This document shows, piece by piece, positions 1-32,279 of a stretch of 38,875 nt of DNA; positions within the stretch are counted from its first letter, which is position 1; the number at the start of each line of letters is the position of its first letter. The notes under the pieces were generated by a model. That model searched no databases. It saw only the letters and a program-made list of their open reading frames with translations, and was not told the origin of the DNA. The stretch spans positions 1-38,875 of the forward strand of contig ONTV01000002.1 in NCBI GenBank assembly GCA_900320855.1, read 5' to 3'. Position numbers and translations under genes: made by a program. This DNA comes from an uncultured Lentisphaerota bacterium (GTDB lineage Bacteria; Verrucomicrobiota; Kiritimatiellia; RFP12; UBA1067).

Positions 1-110
1 GGCGCGCGCGTCGAAATCATGTCGGTGGGGTGCCCGCGAACTGCGGTTCGGGCGAGCAGGTCGGCGCAGGCCTCGATACCAACCGAATTGCGCGCAAGCT
101 GCTCAACGGT
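1..110 (-). pseudogene. possible IS110-type transposase fragment
   Basis: On the minus strand this stretch is open from a TAA at 111-113 to the window edge. It encodes a segment containing VGIEACADLLAR followed by RGHPTDMI. The pattern (G)(I/M)EAC, then AR, then GH about ten residues later, resembles the conserved core of IS110/IS1111-family transposases. There is no start codon after the TAA and the segment is about two residues shorter than the family pattern, so if the assignment is right this is a decayed fragment. The match rests on a few residues and could be chance in GC-rich DNA. No inverted repeats or target duplications are visible because the window begins inside the element. Confidence 0.3.
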
Positions 111-171
111 TTAGAATCGCACCCTGGTCGTCGGGCGCGGCGATTCGGGAAGCCGCATAGGCCCGAAATGT

Positions 172-186
172 GGTATAATAGGCCGC
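172..186 (+). promoter_or_regulatory. extended -10 promoter of the oadA-like gene, leaderless
   Basis: TGG-TATAAT at 171-179, with TATAAT at 174-179, is followed by a 7-nt spacer (AGGCCGC) and then the ATG at 187. Initiation about 7-8 nt after the -10 would start the mRNA at or next to the A of the start codon. No -35 is visible 17 nt upstream (AGCCGC). No Shine-Dalgarno could fit. Confidence 0.8.
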
Positions 187-1878
187 ATGATGAAAACGAA
201 GACGAAGAACCGGATCCGCATCACCGACACGACGCTCCGCGACGCGCACCAGTCCCTCTGGGCGACGCGGATGCGGACGGACGACATCCTGAAGATCGCC
301 GAGACGATGGACAACGCCGGCTTCTATTCGCTCGAATGCTGGGGCGGTGCGACGTTCGACGTGTGCATGCGCTTCCTGCGCGAGAACCCGTGGCAGCGAC
401 TGCGCGAAATCAAGAAGGTCTGCAAGAAGACGCCGCTCCAGATGCTCCTCCGGGGGCAGAACGTCCTCGGCTACAAGCACTATCCGGACGACGTCGTCGA
501 CCGCTTCGTCGCGCTCGCCTGCGAAAACGGCATGGACATCTTCCGCGTCTTCGACGCGCTCAACGATCCGCGCAACCTCGAGACGGCGATCCGCAGCGTG
601 AAGAAGTACGGCGGCCACGCGCAGGGCACGATCTGCTACACGACCTCGCCCGTCCACACCGTCGCGGCCTACGTGAAGCTCGCGAAGCGCCAGGCGGCGA
701 TGGGCATCGACTCGCTTGCGATCAAGGACATGGCGGGAATCCTCACGCCGGGGGCCGCGCGCGAGCTCGTCGCCGCGCTGAAGAAGGCGCTTCCCGACAT
801 GCCGATCCAGGTGCATTCGCACATGACGAGCGGCATGGCGGCGGCGATGTACCTTGCGGCCGCCGAGGCGGGCGCCGGGTGCTTCGACTGCGCGATCTCG
901 ACATTGTCCTCGTTCTCCAGCCAGCCGCCGACGGAGTCCGTCGTCTCGATTCTCGAGTCGGTCGGCTTCGACTGCGGGCTTGACCGCGCGGCGCTCACGA
1001 AGATCAACGCCTACTTCAAGGAGCTGAAGATGAAGCGCCAGCCGGCGAGCTCGACGAAGGTCGAGGCCGTCGATGCGGGCGTCCTCGTCCACGCGATTCC
1101 GGGCGGCATGATCTCGAACCTCCGATCGCAGCTCGCCCAGCAGGACGCGCTCGACCGCCTCGACGAGGTGCTGGAGGAGCTGCCGAAGACGCGCGCCGAC
1201 CTCGGCTATCCGCCGCTCGTCACGCCGACGTCGCAGATCGTCGGCGTCCAGTCCGTCCTGAACGTCCTCTCCGGCACGCGGTATTCGATGGTGACGGACG
1301 AGACGAAGCGCTACGCGGCAGGCTACTACGGCGCGACGCCGGCGCCGATCGACCCGAAGCTCCGCAAGAAGCTCATCGGCTCGCTCAAGCCCATTGACTG
1401 CCGTCCGGCCGACCTACTGAAGCCGGGGCTCGTCGCGGCGGCGGACGAGCTGCCGCCGAACACGATTCAGGCGGAGGAGGACATCCTCTCCTACGCGCTT
1501 TTCCCGGAGGTTGCGCTTGGCTACTTCAAGTGGCGCAAGGAGGGCGGGCCGATTCCGGCGGACGAGGAGGAGGCCGCGCGCGCGTCCGAGCCGGCGGCGG
1601 CGTCCGCGCCGAAGGCGACGGCTGCCCGCCCGGCGGCGGCCGTCTCCGGCACGCCGGTGCTTGCGCCGCTCAACGGCACGTTCTACCGCAGCGACGCGCC
1701 CGGCAAGCCGCAGATGGCGGCGGACGGCGCGTCCGTCAAGGCGGGCGACGCGGTCTGCGTCGTCGAGGCGATGAAGCTCTTCAACCCGATCAAGGCCCCG
1801 GCGTCCGGCAAGATCACGTTCCTGGTCGAGCATGGGAAGGGCGTCCAGAAGGGTCAGGTCCTCGCGACGATTGGATAG
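187..1878 (+). CDS. oadA: biotin-dependent carboxyltransferase (oxaloacetate decarboxylase alpha / pyruvate carboxylase subunit B type)
   Basis: A 563-aa protein with an N-terminal HMGL-like carboxyltransferase barrel. DTTLRDAHQS (residues 14-23) carries the first metal ligand. IKDMAG has the lysine (K180) that is carbamylated and binds metal in this family. HSH at 210-212 supplies the metal-binding histidines. A PYC/OADA conserved domain follows, then an Ala/Pro linker (about 455-485) and a biotinyl domain with EAMKL, where K530 is the expected biotinylation site 34 residues from the end. The biotinyl domain reads like AccB (GTFYRS near its start) more than like typical OadA. No beta or gamma sodium-pump subunit and no biotin carboxylase lies nearby, so it could act as OadA, as pyruvate carboxylase subunit B, or in a transcarboxylase; sequence alone does not decide. 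The ATG at 187 is chosen because it falls exactly 7 nt after a strong -10; a second ATG follows at once. Confidence 0.9.
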   Translation: MMKTKTKNRIRITDTTLRDAHQSLWATRMRTDDILKIAETMDNAGFYSLECWGGATFDVCMRFLRENPWQRLREIKKVCKKTPLQMLLRGQNVLGYKHYPDDVVDRFVALACENGMDIFRVFDALNDPRNLETAIRSVKKYGGHAQGTICYTTSPVHTVAAYVKLAKRQAAMGIDSLAIKDMAGILTPGAARELVAALKKALPDMPIQVHSHMTSGMAAAMYLAAAEAGAGCFDCAISTLSSFSSQPPTESVVSILESVGFDCGLDRAALTKINAYFKELKMKRQPASSTKVEAVDAGVLVHAIPGGMISNLRSQLAQQDALDRLDEVLEELPKTRADLGYPPLVTPTSQIVGVQSVLNVLSGTRYSMVTDETKRYAAGYYGATPAPIDPKLRKKLIGSLKPIDCRPADLLKPGLVAAADELPPNTIQAEEDILSYALFPEVALGYFKWRKEGGPIPADEEEAARASEPAAASAPKATAARPAAAVSGTPVLAPLNGTFYRSDAPGKPQMAADGASVKAGDAVCVVEAMKLFNPIKAPASGKITFLVEHGKGVQKGQVLATIG

Positions 1879-1887
1879 GTTCGCATC

Positions 1888-2697
1888 ATGATAACCGTGG
1901 TCATTGCCGTGGCCGCCGCGTGCGGCTGTTTTTCCCTCGCGTACTTTGTGGGGGACTGGGGTGCCGGGTGGAGCGTCTTTGCGGGCGTGCTCGGCTTCGG
2001 GGTGTTTCAGGGCATCGCCGGCTTCCTGATCCAGAAGCGGGTCAAGGCCGAGATGGAGAGGGTCCAGGCCATCCTCCTGGCCGGGCAGAAGCGCCTCCAG
2101 GCGAAGATGCAGCGCTGGCAGATCCGTCCGCCGAGTTCGGTCGCCGCCGCGCAGAAGGAAATCTTCGAGGACACGAAGGTCTTCGTGAAGGAGGCCCTCG
2201 CCCAGACCGAGGAGCTGCGGAAGTTCAAGCCGTGGGTGCCGCTCATGGGGCGGCAGATCGCGACGGCCCAGCTCCAGCTCTCCTGGATGGTCAAGGACTT
2301 CAAGACCGTCGACCGCCTTCTGCCGCAGGCGATCTGCCTCGACCCGACGATGAGCTGCATCAAGATGGCGCGGCTCTACATGCTGGAGAAGCCGACGGAC
2401 GAGATCGCGAAGGTCTACCGCAAGGCCGTCGGCCGCGTGCGCTACAACGGCAACGTCCTTCTCGCGGCGACGATGAGCTGGATCCAGGTTCGGCGCGGCG
2501 ACGCGGACGGCGCGTTCAAGACGCTGACGGAGGCCCTGAAGAAGAGCGACGACGCGACGCTGAAGCGCAACCACGAGACGCTCATGAACAACCGCGTCGC
2601 GCACTTCACCAATTCGGGCCTGGGCGATCCGTGGTACTCGCTTCTCCTCGAAGAGCCGAAAGTCCACCAGCAGAGGCCGAGGAGCGTGTACAGGTAA
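1888..2697 (+). CDS. membrane-anchored helical/TPR-like protein of unknown function
   Basis: I do not recognise this 269-aa protein as a named family. Residues about 1-20 and 25-47 are hydrophobic and Gly/Ala-rich, suggesting one or two membrane segments. A charged, coiled-coil-like helix follows (about 48-75, rich in K, E, R and Q). The rest is helical, with TPR-like pairs such as AAATMSWIQVRRGDADGAF and a following TLTEALKKS. It begins 9 nt after the oadA-like stop and ends just where the GTTTGGNN octamer array begins, so it is probably in the same operon as its neighbours. A scaffolding or envelope role is only a guess from topology. Confidence 0.7.
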   Translation: MITVVIAVAAACGCFSLAYFVGDWGAGWSVFAGVLGFGVFQGIAGFLIQKRVKAEMERVQAILLAGQKRLQAKMQRWQIRPPSSVAAAQKEIFEDTKVFVKEALAQTEELRKFKPWVPLMGRQIATAQLQLSWMVKDFKTVDRLLPQAICLDPTMSCIKMARLYMLEKPTDEIAKVYRKAVGRVRYNGNVLLAATMSWIQVRRGDADGAFKTLTEALKKSDDATLKRNHETLMNNRVAHFTNSGLGDPWYSLLLEEPKVHQQRPRSVYR

Positions 2698-2763
2698 GTC
2701 TGGGCGTTTGGATGTTCGGGCGTTTGGAAGTTTTGAGGCTTTTGGAGGTTCGGTAGTTTGGTC
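2698..2763 (+). repeat. octamer array GTTTGGNN filling the gap before murU-amgK
   Basis: About eight imperfect units: GTCTGGGC, GTTTGGAT, GTTCGGGC, GTTTGGAA, GTTTTGAG, a 10-nt variant, GTTCGGTA and GTTTGGTC. The first six bases are semi-conserved and the last two vary. The array fills the space from the stop at 2695-2697 to the next gene. GGAGG (2744-2748) and the TTG start codon (2758-2760) both lie inside it. On the other strand the unit is NNCCAAAC, the same as the array inside iorA at 31145-31200. Confidence 0.85.
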
Positions 2764-4458
2764 AAGAAAGCAGTCATCCTCGCGGCGGGGCATGGGACGC
2801 GGCTGAGGCCGTTCACGTGCGCGACGCCGAAGCCGCTCCTGCCCGTCTGGGGCGAGACGATGCTCGACCGCGTGCTGGCGCTTCTGCGCGCGCGCGGCGT
2901 CGAGGACGTCGTCGTCAATTCCCATCACCTGCACGAGCAGATCCGCGCGTGGAGCGACGCCGTCCGCCGCGACGCGCAGGCGGCGGGCGAGAGGCTGCGC
3001 CTCAAGGTGAGCTACGAGCCGGAGATCCTGGGAAGCGGCGGCGTCCTCAACCCGATCCGCGACTGGATCGGCGACGAGCCGTTCTACCTCGTCAACGCCG
3101 ACATCGTCGTCGAGAACGTGCCGGACCTGGACGCGGCGTTTGCGGCGGTGCGGGCGACGGACGACGTCCTCGGCGTCTGCCTCGCCACGGAGTCGGGGCC
3201 CCGGACGGTCGAGGTCGAGCCGGAGTCGGGTTTCGTCACGAACTGGAAGAGCGACGACGCGGGGCTGGACGGGACGTTCACCTACTGCGGGCTCGCCGTC
3301 CTGAAGCCGCGCGTCCTCGACTACGTGAAGCCGGAGGGCTTCTCGTCGATCGTCACGGCCTACGAGGCGGCGATGATGGCCGGGCATTTCATGAAGGCCG
3401 TCCGTTCGGGCGACCTCCTCTGGGAGGACGCGGGGACGGTGGCGCGCTACCTGGACCTCAACCGCGACGGCGACGACAACGCCTTCGCCGACATCCCCCA
3501 GCTCAAGGCGACGGGCGCGGCGGACTTCACGTTCCTCGGCGCGCGCGGCAGCGACCGCGTCTTCTTCGGCTGCGACAAGGGCATCGCCATCCTCTACGAC
3601 GACGGCAACCGCAACGAGAACGGCAAGTATCCGGGCCACGCGCGCTGGCTCAAGGCGAAGGGCGTGCCCGTGCCGGACGTCCTGTTCGACGATCCGACGA
3701 CGAAGACGATGATCCTCGCGCACGCGGGCGTCGAGCGGAAGATGTCGCTGGAAGACGAGGCGAAGGTCGTCGAGGCGCTGGCCGCGTTCAACGCGCTGGG
3801 CGCCGAGCCCGACCTTCCCGACCTCCTGCCGCCGTTCGACGACGAGACGTGGGAGTGGGAACACGACCTCTTCGCGAAGCACTGCCTCGGCACGCGCTTC
3901 GGGCGCACGCTCCCGTCGGCGGCGAAGGCGGAGCTTGAGAAGGTCGCGGAAATCCTCGAACGCGAGCCGAAGGCGCTCGTCCACCGCGACTTCCAGTCCA
4001 CGAACATCCTCTGGAAGGGCGACCGGCTCTCGTTCATCGACTTCCAGGGCATGCGCCTCGGGCCGGCGGCCTACGACCTCGCCTCGTTCGTCTACGATCC
4101 CTACGTGACATTCACGGACGACGCGCGGCGCGCGCTCGTCGCGCTCTATGCGCAGAAGACCGGGCGCGACGACCTGCCGAAGGTCCTGCCGTTCGCGGCC
4201 GTCCAGCGGCTCGTGCAGTGCCTCGGCGCCTATGGGCGTCTCGCGTCCGTCGGCCAGCCCCAGTTCGGGAAGCACGTCCTGCCCGCGCTCGAGAACCTGC
4301 TCGACGCGGCGGACAAGGCGGGGCTGGACGCGGTCGGCGCGCTGGCGGAAGACCTTATCGCCGCCGAGACGCGGCGGCACGCACACGACGATCACGATCA
4401 CGCGCCCGGCACGGCCTGCGCGTGCGGACATTCCCACGGCCCGGCGGCACACGCATGA
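2758..4458 (+). CDS. fused sugar-1-phosphate nucleotidyltransferase / sugar kinase (MurU-AmgK type)
   Basis: A 566-aa bifunctional protein. The N-terminal half (about 1-240) is a nucleotidyltransferase with LAAGHGTRLRPFT, PKPLLPV and the metal-binding NAD of VNADIVV. The C-terminal half (about 255-530) is an aminoglycoside-phosphotransferase-like kinase, with HRDFQSTNIL (H409, D411) as catalytic loop and FIDFQ (D428) as metal site. Separate MurU and AmgK enzymes convert MurNAc to MurNAc-1-P and then UDP-MurNAc in cell-wall recycling. The fusion would do both steps, but other sugars are possible. The last 28 residues are a His-rich tail (seven His, two Cys) that may bind metal. The start is TTG at 2758, preceded at 9 nt by GGAGG; both signals lie within the octamer array. 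The stop overlaps the next start (ATGA at 4455). Confidence 0.82.
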   Translation: MVKKAVILAAGHGTRLRPFTCATPKPLLPVWGETMLDRVLALLRARGVEDVVVNSHHLHEQIRAWSDAVRRDAQAAGERLRLKVSYEPEILGSGGVLNPIRDWIGDEPFYLVNADIVVENVPDLDAAFAAVRATDDVLGVCLATESGPRTVEVEPESGFVTNWKSDDAGLDGTFTYCGLAVLKPRVLDYVKPEGFSSIVTAYEAAMMAGHFMKAVRSGDLLWEDAGTVARYLDLNRDGDDNAFADIPQLKATGAADFTFLGARGSDRVFFGCDKGIAILYDDGNRNENGKYPGHARWLKAKGVPVPDVLFDDPTTKTMILAHAGVERKMSLEDEAKVVEALAAFNALGAEPDLPDLLPPFDDETWEWEHDLFAKHCLGTRFGRTLPSAAKAELEKVAEILEREPKALVHRDFQSTNILWKGDRLSFIDFQGMRLGPAAYDLASFVYDPYVTFTDDARRALVALYAQKTGRDDLPKVLPFAAVQRLVQCLGAYGRLASVGQPQFGKHVLPALENLLDAADKAGLDAVGALAEDLIAAETRRHAHDDHDHAPGTACACGHSHGPAAHA

Positions 4459-6572
4459 GCGCGATCCGCCAGTTCCTCGCGCGCGTCAAGGCCAGCGGCG
4501 TCCGTCGGCCCGGTGCGGTCAAGACGGTCGCGATGGGCGTCGCGCGGACGTTTGACGCCTACGACGTCGGCGACGACACGTTCGTCTTCGAGCGCGGGAT
4601 CGGCGCGCGGCTCTCGGCGCGCGCGAGCGTCCTCATCGTCGAGAAGGGGGTGCTGCGCCGCCGCGCGAAGGGGCGCGTCCTCACGCTCACGACGGGCAAC
4701 CACGCCGTCGCGGCGTTTCCGCTCCTGGACGGGCGTTTCTGGCGGCTCTCGGCGCTCAAGGCCGACGCGCGCGGCGACGTCCTCATGCGCCAGGTCCTCT
4801 GCGCGAACGTGACGGGCGACACGATCGAGCTCTCGCAGCGCGAGGTGCCGACCGCCGCGCTCGTCCGCGCCGACGGCTGGCTCGTCTCGACGGTCGGCTT
4901 CTCGTTTGCGGACATCGTCATGGGCGAGCGCAACGAGGCGACGCTTGAACACTACCGTCGCCTCGGGCAGGAGTGGCGCGTCAAGCCGCTCGCGTGGACG
5001 GAGGGCGAGATGCGCGTCGCGCTCGCCGCCGCGAAGAAGCGCATCGGCACGAGCCTGTCCTACTACCACTCGGCGCGCGGCGTCCACTGGCTGACCTTCC
5101 CCGAGTTCCAGCGCTTCTCCGCCCTGGCCGAGTCGGATCCGGCGGCGTTCCTGCGCGGGCTCAAGGAGCTCGTCGGCGTCTACGAGGGCAACCGCGTCTC
5201 GTTCATGCGTCAGCCGAAGTACCGGGGCCACCACGAGATCGAGTGCTTCGGCCTCCTGCGCGGCATCGCGGCGAGCCGGCTCGTGCCGGAGATCGAGCGG
5301 CTCATGGAGGCCGTCGCGCTCGGCCGCCTCGGCCAGCTCGGCGTCATCCAGAAGGTGCAGGAGATCGTCGCGCTCTACCGCTCGCTTCTCGCGCGCCCGG
5401 CGCTTGCGGACGCGGAGTCGAAGGACTTCGTCGAGACGCTCTACATGCACATCACGGGCGAGGTCTACGCCGTCGGCGGCGAGGGCGCGACGCCTGCGTT
5501 CGACGACCGGCGCACGGCGCTCCCCGGCGCGACGTTCGTGGACGGGCGGCCCGTCCTGCATCCGGGGGCGGACGCGCGCACGGAGATCCTCGTCGCGAAC
5601 CTGCGCGGCTTCATGTCGAAGGACGAGGTCGTCGAGTACGCGAACGTCTACGAGCTGCGCACGAAGGACGAGGACGTCCCGCTGGGCCGGGGCGACACGC
5701 GCGAGATCGTCTACAAGACGAGCCGGCGTCCGCTCGAGAACGCGCTCGTCGAGAAGCGCCTCGCCGGGTCGGGCAAGGGCTATTCGGCCTACCTCCTCTC
5801 GCGCATCGGCGCGCTGCGCTCGCTCGGCATCGCGCTGAGCGACTACTACCAGCTTCTGAAGCATCGGCCCGGCCGACGGCACGGCAGCCACGAGCACTAC
5901 ATCCGCCGGCGGTGCGAGGGCGAGCCGATGGACGCGATTCCCGCGAACTACTTCCAGTCGGCGGACGGCTCGGGCGCGGAGGAGAAGGAGGTCGTCCTCT
6001 CGCTCGCGACGCTGATGGGCGATGCGGCCGCGCAGAACCTCGCGATGAAGAAGTTCGACCCCGCGTCGGGAACGCCGCTCTACGGCATCGGCAAGGAGAT
6101 CTACGAGTTCGAGTACGACCTCGTGCGCGAAATGGTCGTCCCGAAGCGCGTGACGACGTGTTCCGTGCGCGGCAGCTTCGGCTGGCCGGACCTTGCCTAC
6201 ACGGACGCGAACCTTGACGCGATCGCGAACTTCTACCTCGGCTACTTCGCGCACTCGGTGAAGGCGTATGCGACGCGCCATCCCTGCGCGACGATGGCGG
6301 AGGTCGCCGAGCGGTTCATGAGCGGCTTCGAGTTCCGCATCCGCGCGCTCGAGTGGCAGTTCTCCGTCCTACGCGACCGGTTCGAGGCGTTTCGGCCGGA
6401 CGTGCCCGCGCGCTTCGGCTTCGACGCGAAGTGGCGCTTCGCCCTCTGGGCGCTCGAACGGCACGAGCGCCGCCTCCCGCGTCTGCGCCGCCTCTTCTTC
6501 GAGAAGGTGAAGGTCATCGAAGACGAGGCCACGCGGGGGGCGACTAGACGCGGAGCGCGTGGGATGGTATAA
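4455..6572 (+). CDS. unrecognised 705-aa cytoplasmic protein coupled to murU-amgK
   Basis: I cannot assign this protein to a family. It has no signal peptide or clear membrane segment. The N-terminal 180 residues are beta-rich. The middle is helical, with SYYHSARGVHW and the segment FMRQPKYRGHHEIECFG. The C-terminal third has GSHEHYIRRR, a stretch beginning YGIGKEIYEFEYD, and SVRGSFGWPDL, dense in charged and aromatic residues and perhaps a conserved active-site core. The ATG at 4455 overlaps the preceding stop by 4 nt, so translation is probably coupled and a link to sugar or cell-wall metabolism is likely but unproven. The stop TAA (6570-6572) lies inside the TATAAT of the next promoter, so the protein ends in Met-Val. 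Confidence 0.75.
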   Translation: MSAIRQFLARVKASGVRRPGAVKTVAMGVARTFDAYDVGDDTFVFERGIGARLSARASVLIVEKGVLRRRAKGRVLTLTTGNHAVAAFPLLDGRFWRLSALKADARGDVLMRQVLCANVTGDTIELSQREVPTAALVRADGWLVSTVGFSFADIVMGERNEATLEHYRRLGQEWRVKPLAWTEGEMRVALAAAKKRIGTSLSYYHSARGVHWLTFPEFQRFSALAESDPAAFLRGLKELVGVYEGNRVSFMRQPKYRGHHEIECFGLLRGIAASRLVPEIERLMEAVALGRLGQLGVIQKVQEIVALYRSLLARPALADAESKDFVETLYMHITGEVYAVGGEGATPAFDDRRTALPGATFVDGRPVLHPGADARTEILVANLRGFMSKDEVVEYANVYELRTKDEDVPLGRGDTREIVYKTSRRPLENALVEKRLAGSGKGYSAYLLSRIGALRSLGIALSDYYQLLKHRPGRRHGSHEHYIRRRCEGEPMDAIPANYFQSADGSGAEEKEVVLSLATLMGDAAAQNLAMKKFDPASGTPLYGIGKEIYEFEYDLVREMVVPKRVTTCSVRGSFGWPDLAYTDANLDAIANFYLGYFAHSVKAYATRHPCATMAEVAERFMSGFEFRIRALEWQFSVLRDRFEAFRPDVPARFGFDAKWRFALWALERHERRLPRLRRLFFEKVKVIEDEATRGATRRGARGMV

Positions 6573-9653: not shown

Positions 9654-9725
9654 AATAATCGAATGATCGAATGGTCGAATGATCGAATAATCGAATGATC
9701 GAATGGTCGAATGATCGAGTGATTG
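9654..9725 (+). repeat. octamer array AATRRTCG with a 32-bp higher-order repeat
   Basis: Nine 8-bp units. The first four (AATAATCG, AATGATCG, AATGGTCG, AATGATCG) recur exactly as the next four, so 9654-9685 equals 9686-9717; a diverged unit, AGTGATTG, follows. Only positions 4 and 5 vary in the first eight units. The array starts 2 nt after the RraA-like stop and ends 31 nt before the GH10 start. It is strikingly AT-richer than its surroundings. Confidence 0.95.
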
Positions 9726-9756
9726 AATGGCAGATGAGTCAATGAAAGGAGCAGCA

Positions 9757-30452: not shown

Positions 30453-32279
30453 ATGAAGAAGTTTCTGAGTGCGAACGAGGCGGTCGCCCACGCGGCGGCG
30501 CAGGCGGGGTGCGTGGTGGCGTCGGCCTATCCGGGCACGCCTTCGACGGAGATCCTGGAGAACGTCGCGAAGTTCAAGGACACGATCCGCTGCGAGTGGG
30601 CGGTGAACGAGAAGGTCGCCGTCGAGACGGCCGTCGGCGCGTCGATGGCGGGGGCGCGCGCACTGACCGCGATGAAGCACGTCGGCCTCAACGTCGCGAT
30701 GGACCCGCTCATGACGTTCACCTACGTCGGCCCGCTCGGCGGCTTCGTCCTCGTCTCGGCGGACGACCCCGGCATGCACTCCTCGCAGAACGAGCAGGAC
30801 AACCGCAACCTCGCGAAGTTCGCGCGCGCGCTCCTGCTGGAGCCGGCCGACTCGCAGGAGGCCTACGACATGACGCGCGCGGCGTTCGAGCTCTCCGAGC
30901 AGTTCCGCGTGCCGGTGATCCTGCGCCTCACGACGCGCACGAGCCACTCAGCCTCGCTCGTCGAGCTGGGCGACTTCAGCCCCAAGCCGCATCCGCTTCT
31001 CCCCTACGTAAAGGACATCCGCCGCAACATCCCCGTGCCGGCGTTCTCGCCGACCCAGCGGCTCAACGCGCAGAAGCGCACGGCGGCGATGGAGAAGGCG
31101 GCCTGCGCCTCGCCCTTCAACCGAATCGTCAAACCCACTGCAACCTCCAAACGGCCAAACACCCAAACCTCCAAACTTCCAAACGCCCAAACCTCCAAAC
31201 CCGCCCCCCTCGGCATCGTGACGAGCGCCGTCGCCTACCAGTACGTGCGCGAGATCTTCCCCGACGTGCCGATCCTGAAGCTCGGGTGGACGAATCCGCT
31301 GCCCAAGGCGCTCGTCGCGAAGTTCGCGAAGGGCGTCGGGAAGCTGCTCGTCGTCGAGGAGCTGGATCCGTTCCTCGAGGACCAGATCAAGGCGATGGGC
31401 CTTGCCGTCGTGCCGCACAAGACCGAGCTCAACATGCTCGAGCTCAACGCCGACCGCCTCCAGAACCTCCGCCACGAGATCCTCGGCGACGTGCCGAAGG
31501 CCAAGGCGAAGAAGGTCGACGAGACGCTGCCGCGCCGTCCGCCCGTCCTCTGCGCGGGCTGCGGGCATCGCGGCGTCTTCTACGTCCTGCACAAGCTCGG
31601 CGCGACGGTGACGGGCGACATCGGCTGCTACACGCTCGGCGCGTTTCCGCCCCTCTCGGCGATGGACTCGACGATCTGCATGGGCGCGTCGATCGGCAAC
31701 GCCGCCGGCATGAAGAAGGCGGGCGTGAAGGGCCGCATCTGTGCCGTCCTCGGCGACTCGACGTTCTTCCACTCGGGCATCACGGGCATTCTCTCCGCCC
31801 TCTACAACGGCACGCCCGTGACGACGGTCGTCCTCGACAACCGCATCACCGCGATGACGGGCCACCAGGACAATCCGGGGACGGGCAAGACGCTCGCGGG
31901 CGACCCCGCGCCCGTCACGGAGATCGGTGACATCGCGAAGGCCTGCGGCTACCGAAAGGTCGTGAAGGTTTCGGCCGACGACCTCGCCGCGCTGGAGACG
32001 GTCTTGATGGACGCGATGGACGGCGACGAGCCGGCGCTCGTCATCGCCTACGCGCCGTGCCGCATCGCCGCGAAGCTCACGAAGGAGGGGCTGTGCGCGA
32101 CGGACGCGGCGAAATGCAAAGCGTGCGGCGCGTGCTTCAAGCTCGGCTGCCCCGCGATCACGCGCGGCGAGGAAGTCGCGCCCGGCCGCTTCAAGATGCG
32201 GATCGACGCCGAGCTGTGCGCGGGCTGCAAGCACTGCACGCAGGTCTGCAAGTTCGGCGCGATCGCGCGCGTGCGCTAA
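30453..32279 (+). CDS. iorA: indolepyruvate:ferredoxin oxidoreductase alpha subunit
   Basis: A 608-aa thiamine-diphosphate enzyme subunit that oxidatively decarboxylates aryl pyruvates and passes electrons to ferredoxin. The N-terminal pyrimidine-binding region begins LSANEAVAHAAAQAG. The TPP-binding domain has CAGCGHRG, GDIGCYTLG, and GDSTFFHSG with LDN. The C-terminus has two ferredoxin-type clusters, CKACGACFKLGCP and CAGCKHCTQVCK. Residues 231-250 are encoded by a 7-unit NNCCAAAC array, giving an octapeptide repeat TSK(R/L)PN(T/A)Q, between the PFOR-like N-terminal part and the following domain. The partner beta subunit (iorB) is not adjacent. The start is set by the Shine-Dalgarno. Confidence 0.92.
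   Translation: MKKFLSANEAVAHAAAQAGCVVASAYPGTPSTEILENVAKFKDTIRCEWAVNEKVAVETAVGASMAGARALTAMKHVGLNVAMDPLMTFTYVGPLGGFVLVSADDPGMHSSQNEQDNRNLAKFARALLLEPADSQEAYDMTRAAFELSEQFRVPVILRLTTRTSHSASLVELGDFSPKPHPLLPYVKDIRRNIPVPAFSPTQRLNAQKRTAAMEKAACASPFNRIVKPTATSKRPNTQTSKLPNAQTSKPAPLGIVTSAVAYQYVREIFPDVPILKLGWTNPLPKALVAKFAKGVGKLLVVEELDPFLEDQIKAMGLAVVPHKTELNMLELNADRLQNLRHEILGDVPKAKAKKVDETLPRRPPVLCAGCGHRGVFYVLHKLGATVTGDIGCYTLGAFPPLSAMDSTICMGASIGNAAGMKKAGVKGRICAVLGDSTFFHSGITGILSALYNGTPVTTVVLDNRITAMTGHQDNPGTGKTLAGDPAPVTEIGDIAKACGYRKVVKVSADDLAALETVLMDAMDGDEPALVIAYAPCRIAAKLTKEGLCATDAAKCKACGACFKLGCPAITRGEEVAPGRFKMRIDAELCAGCKHCTQVCKFGAIARVR
31145..31200 (+). repeat. octamer array NNCCAAAC inside iorA
   Basis: Seven exact 8-bp units with CCAAAC invariant and the leading dinucleotide CT, GG, AC, CT, TT, GC, CT. 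It is the reverse-complement family of the array at 2698-2763, here lying within a reading frame. The 56 nt are not a multiple of 3, so flanking bases must be part of the in-frame insertion. Confidence 0.95.

Follow-up and report, generated by a model that had tools for sequence, protein, structure and literature searches.

The stretch at 2698-2763, ahead of a gene that joins a MurU-like and an AmgK-like domain, is probably one copy of a species-specific, dispersed family of GTTTGGRN octamers, co-opted at this fusion gene as its Shine-Dalgarno (SD) sequence. The window, meaning the whole stretch of DNA that was analysed (38,875 nucleotides), is one entire contig (C37). The draft genome that it belongs to measures 2.41 Mb, has a completeness of 87% and has its relatives among the Kiritimatiellae of ruminant and other guts.

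The array and the start of the fusion gene

The fusion gene, its upstream neighbours and the array were delimited as follows:

187-1878, + strand: oxaloacetate decarboxylase alpha/pyruvate carboxylase B-like gene, heading the co-directional run (profile match)
1888-2697, + strand: upstream hypothetical gene, with the stop codon TAA at 2695-2697
2698-2763, + strand: degenerate octamer array of eight GTTTGGRN units, one with a 2-nt insertion (sequence, Tandem Repeats Finder, unit scan)
2734-2736, + strand: in-frame TGA stop codon inside the array, which excludes an earlier start in this frame (sequence)
2744-2748, + strand: GGAGG across a unit junction, an SD sequence 9 nt before the TTG (sequence)
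2758-2760, + strand: TTG start codon within the last unit (sequence, ORF, orthologue starts)
2758-4458, + strand: fusion ORF of 566 aa, MurU-like nucleotidyltransferase (PF00483) plus AmgK-like phosphotransferase (PF01636) (domain profiles)

The array opens one base past the upstream stop codon, occupies the entire gap to the fusion gene and runs into codons 1-2 of the latter; its units, in order, are GTCTGGGC GTTTGGAT GTTCGGGC GTTTGGAA GTTTTGAG (GC)TTTTGGAG GTTCGGTA GTTTGGTC. A preliminary description had placed it at 2738-2763, coordinates that were right but an extent that was too short, the real array, which was scored by Tandem Repeats Finder, covering 2698-2763. That description had located GGAGG on a unit junction, nine bases ahead of the TTG, which is a direct reading of the sequence, and had taken TTG 2758 for the true start. 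The latter was borne out by three observations: the in-frame codons run TGA (2734-2736) GGC TTT TGG AGG TTC GGT AGT TTG GTC AAG AAA, with TTG as the first start codon past the TGA; the PF00483 match begins at residue 4 of the protein; and the N-terminus, VKKAVILAAG, coincides with the starts of same-genus orthologues. The fusion scored far under the curated equivalog cut-offs, with 99 bits vs 250 for MurU (NF045761) and 51 bits vs 550 for AmgK (NF045759), and both functional names are therefore given by similarity only. A His-rich tail, HAHDDHDHAPGTACACGHSHGPAAHA, with no role assigned, closes the protein (4378-4455).

In this genome, a 4-mer of the SD sequence was present at -20 to -5 in 40% of 525 called genes, compared with 11-14% in control windows; gene calls were seeded from known window genes, and SD sequences were not used in the choice of starts. 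The distance between GGAGG and the start peaked at 7 nt and was mostly 4-10 nt, a range that includes the 9 nt seen in the window. This genome-wide use of SD sequences and of such spacings makes the site credible. The predicted fold of the leader was ordinary (z -0.96), with part of the GGAGG region paired, and a structured or riboswitch-like leader was rejected on this value.

A search of window positions 1-4600 found no promoter in or near the array, and several relatives carry TATAAT just 5' of the fusion orthologue. Across the 525 genes, TATAAT was concentrated at -16 to -9 of the starts (43 occurrences in that 8-nt bin vs 1-11 in other bins), and in the relatives' loci L032, L034, L037-L039, L043 and L050 it often stood ahead of starts as TATGGTATAAT. 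This placement suggests leaderless or very short-leader mRNAs.

No octamer array was found ahead of the fusion gene in 35 loci of relatives (28 of the same genus and 7 further ones), from which we infer that the array arrived later at this locus. The upstream neighbour (..RSVYR*) was recognisable 5' of the orthologue in 16 relatives, and where it was recognised the gap ranged from -4 to 78 nt, so that the ancestral gap is not certain. In the closest relative (L121, 76% identity) the upstream stop codon and the ATG share bases (gap -4), and several relatives have, for the fusion gene, an ATG or GTG start that lies near that codon or overlaps it. A GTTTGGRN array that came to fill a short gap between two co-directional genes would therefore probably have moved them 60 nt apart, presumably with the loss of translational coupling. 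Many relatives have no SD before the fusion orthologue, and since they translate the gene without one, the SD may be dispensable.

The orthologue of genome G024 (73% identical) has ATGGTCAAGAAAGC where the window has TTGGTCAAGAAAGC; the TTG therefore looks like the end of a GTTTGG joined to the old start, and would have arisen at the junction of the last GTTTGG with (A)TGGTC. The earlier proposal that the array supplied both the SD sequence and the start codon was upheld for the former and, on this comparison, for the latter at least as regards its first base.

Octamer families in the genome and its relatives

Tandem segments with periods of 4 to 19 were surveyed in 743 kb of the genome, where runs of N raise the counts at every period by a few. 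Period 8 yielded 43 noncoding and 38 coding segments, compared with 3-7 and 4-9 at other periods, the multiple 16 apart. Three octamer families were recognised, GTTTGG-RN, TCGAAT-RN and GTGGGA-RN, each composed of a hexamer, a purine and any base, and the seventh base of exact units was a purine in 213/229, 148/153 and 28/28 cases, respectively. The genome was sampled over about 934 kb, in stretches mostly picked for GTTTGG arrays, so that the counts are not unbiased densities. Exact triples in this genome numbered 86 for GTTTGG vs 0-9 in 34 same-genus genomes (0-11 among the relatives), 153 for TCGAAT vs 0-5 (57 relatives), and 25 for GTGGGA vs 0 in relatives. The exact pattern GTTTGGNNGTTTNGNNGTTTGG was counted 91 times in the genome and its reversed form 4 times, and shuffled hexamer cores, used as control, gave no arrays, the sole non-zero control being the reverse complement of TCGAAT. 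A chance match as the source of the array was rejected on these counts and controls together with the excess at period 8. Both the above-chance scatter and the patchy, species-specific distribution that characterise dispersed short tandem repeats were thus found.

Random stretches of other species showed octamers of their own, for example GTTGAARR (G030 and G033) and GTTRRGTR (G002). Different octamer arrays also occupied homologous gaps, at nrdR in G008 (L222) and at an uncharacterised gene, that of L166, in G013 (L246), with the units GTTGAARR and GTTGAGAR in these two gaps; gaps between operon genes have therefore seemingly been filled repeatedly by species-specific octamers. A search of the literature yielded no relevant account of such octamer arrays in the phylum. 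Besides the array at the fusion gene, the window carries arrays of all three families:

9654-9730, + strand: second family, TCGAATRN array with an AATAA leader, two bases past a stop codon
11507-11589, - strand: third family, GTGGGA-like when read on the minus strand; it stops right at ATG 11590 and has no SD
31127-31200, - strand: GTTTGG family, with CCAAAC in the coding strand; in-frame insert in a linker of the gene at 30453-32279

The TCGAAT arrays (49 in loci of this genome, including the one at 9654-9730) had a conserved left end, mostly GAAATAA followed by TCGAATRR, and variable right ends, and usually lay near a stop codon or, when reversed, near a start codon; they resemble an element that is fixed at a single end. 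In hybrid arrays (L081:15726-15868, L077:9778-9908 and L081:17883 onward) TCGAAT units ran directly into GTTTGG-like ones, which points to a relationship between the families or to growth in situ.

Arrays at translation starts and inside genes

All the sense arrays that ended within 6 nt of a start (5/5 genes) carried GGAGG at 5-9 nt from it, the arrangement of the fusion gene recurring at four other genes: waaA (L061), nrdR (L076), an uncharacterised protein (L166) and a Gfo/Idh oxidoreductase (L067). The L067 case was detected with a looser array chain, and the stricter set gave 4/4 (the window, L061, L076 and L166). If array ends are drawn at random within these arrays, GGAGG is expected at such a distance in about 11% of cases; the recurrence in 5/5 goes beyond this rate for a class of five genes set post hoc, and the probability of 4/4 by chance (about 0.0002) is indicative, the array-to-start class having been defined post hoc. 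The start of nrdR was fixed independently, positions 1-42 of the NrdR zinc-ribbon profile aligning to residues 1-42, and in three of the five genes (L061, L076 and L166) a GTTTAG unit also brings a TAG, in frame with the gene, to a position just 5' of the start. In contrast, of the six antisense arrays that lay up to 13 nt from a start, none had an SD (0/6). On this difference between sense and antisense arrays, and on 5/5 vs 11%, we accept the array as a putative ribosome-binding site, and judging from sequence it appears that sense arrays are co-opted in this way where they adjoin a start. A unit whose last two bases are AG, followed by the next G, reads GGAGG, and a sense array would thus offer candidate SD sites every 8 nt, one of which, 9 nt from the start, was retained at the fusion gene and is probably used.

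As chance GGAGG in one array is not rare at that 11%, the site could also be accidental, with translation of the fusion gene depending on that of the upstream gene, through read-through coupling or reinitiation, and the array acting as inert filler. The several relatives that lack an SD and start the gene at or near the upstream stop would agree with this, as would the persistence of genes that adjoin antisense arrays without an SD. We nevertheless hold it to be unlikely, since a gap of 60 nt is long for reinitiation and GGAGG stands at the proper distance in all five sense arrays.

The distribution of the GTTTGG arrays was compared with the position and strand of the genes. About half of them (31/61) sit within genes, where 30 were antisense and only one was sense; the coding strand of the antisense arrays reads CCAAAC..., is stop-free and encodes T-S-K-x-P-N-x-Q. 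The array at 31127-31200 is such a case, inserted into a gene that we take to be indolepyruvate ferredoxin oxidoreductase alpha-like, with an 8-aa period (TSKRPNTQ TSKLPNAQ TSK) in a linker whose length differs among relatives. The 30 to 1 strand bias would mean that arrays are also filtered by the product that they encode. Between co-directional genes there were 15 sense and 11 antisense arrays, which often lay no more than 10 nt from the stop codon of the upstream gene. This placement is that of insertions sorted by tolerance rather than of a purpose-built translation signal.

The same data bear on the idea that the arrays are bound by a protein which reads the repeats in RNA or DNA, a role put forward for the TAACTGA repeats of Candidatus Maribeggiatoa, with the SD being secondary. 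Such a role would account for the hexamer, purine and any-base plan shared by the three families and for the many arrays that adjoin stop or start codons, but intergenic arrays do not clearly prefer one orientation and about half of the GTTTGG arrays are intragenic, which tolerated insertions fit better; we consider it very unlikely.

Decay of the array and comparison with known repeats

The preliminary description had further suggested a phase-variation-like switch, in which gain or loss of units would alter the distance between SD and start and thereby translation. In such a switch, MurU-AmgK output would follow from slippage. At 9 nt, the spacer has roughly the length of a unit, and gain or loss of a unit there would break the spacing; some other arrays of the genome also have exact period-8 runs of up to 24 nt. 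However, the window array is among the most decayed, with 3/8 cores exact, an identity of 66% between adjacent units and a longest period-8 match of 4 nt, near the bottom of the arrays of this genome (median 7, maximum 24 nt), and slippage between such poorly matched neighbours should be poor. Indels outside the spacer would leave the distance unchanged, the fusion gene encodes neither a surface protein nor an antigen, and the arrays are placed irrespective of orientation (15 sense and 11 antisense), those adjoining starts in antisense and without an SD arguing that the class was not built to tune translation. The switch is therefore highly improbable in our view. Contingency loci with simple sequence repeats, such as those of Haemophilus influenzae (PMC2651432) and the AGAT leader repeats of Moraxella uspA2 (cited in PMC4679880), resemble the window array in having tandem repeats near or in a gene leader; they differ in that their number of units varies and that surface genes are among them, whereas the window array is decayed, lacks a near-perfect, slippage-prone tract and precedes a metabolic gene. 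Co-option of a dispersed repeat, the explanation that we prefer, implies no switching, and the array would have decayed later by point mutation around the retained GGAGG.

Short tandemly repeated repetitive (STRR) sequences of cyanobacteria are dispersed, degenerate tandem arrays of heptamers, and are reportedly the subject of a 1997 paper by Vioque. They are like the octamers described here in being dispersed, degenerate and made of short tandem units, and differ in being heptamers.

The closest published case, by analogy, would be the direct repeats of the heptamer TAACTGA in Candidatus Maribeggiatoa and its relatives, proposed to act in translation, just ahead of starts (MacGregor 2015, PMC4679880). 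Both systems are genome-wide, with many arrays a few nt 5' of starts and a patchy distribution among species, and the TAACTGA arrays are mostly intergenic, with a minority in ORFs largely in one orientation (PMC4679880). The Maribeggiatoa unit has 7 nt, compared with 8 nt here, and has little SD character, canonical sites being rare (15 repeat-bearing regions, ~10%), whereas GTTTGGAG units here create GGAGG; most TAACTGA sets face start codons (PMC4679880), while the orientation of octamers between genes is about even. The GGGAATC and GGGGA(C/T)T heptads of Xanthomonas and Nostoc form G-rich degenerate arrays, mostly between co-directional genes, and like the octamers lie nearer the 5' neighbouring ORF, on either strand, and vary in length and sequence between close relatives; their unit is of 7 nt, and in the parts of the source consulted they are studied for G-quadruplex formation, with no description of a role as ribosome-binding sites (PMC4692102). 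The arrays described here stand apart by their 8-nt unit on the hexamer-R-N plan, their species-specific families and the canonical SD that comes from the array.

If our main reading is true, repeats usually regarded as junk have, within a single genome, been turned into ribosome-binding sites at several genes, and the array-free relatives represent the state before, so that the birth of translation start signals would be open to reporter tests. More broadly, and only as a tentative and rather doubtful extension, arrays of the hexamer, purine and any-base type may be actively made or spread in these Kiritimatiellae, with hexamers particular to each species, and their invasion may repeatedly rewire the initiation signals of operons, giving new starts where they are sense and bear GGAGG, and new protein linkers where they are antisense and stop-free.
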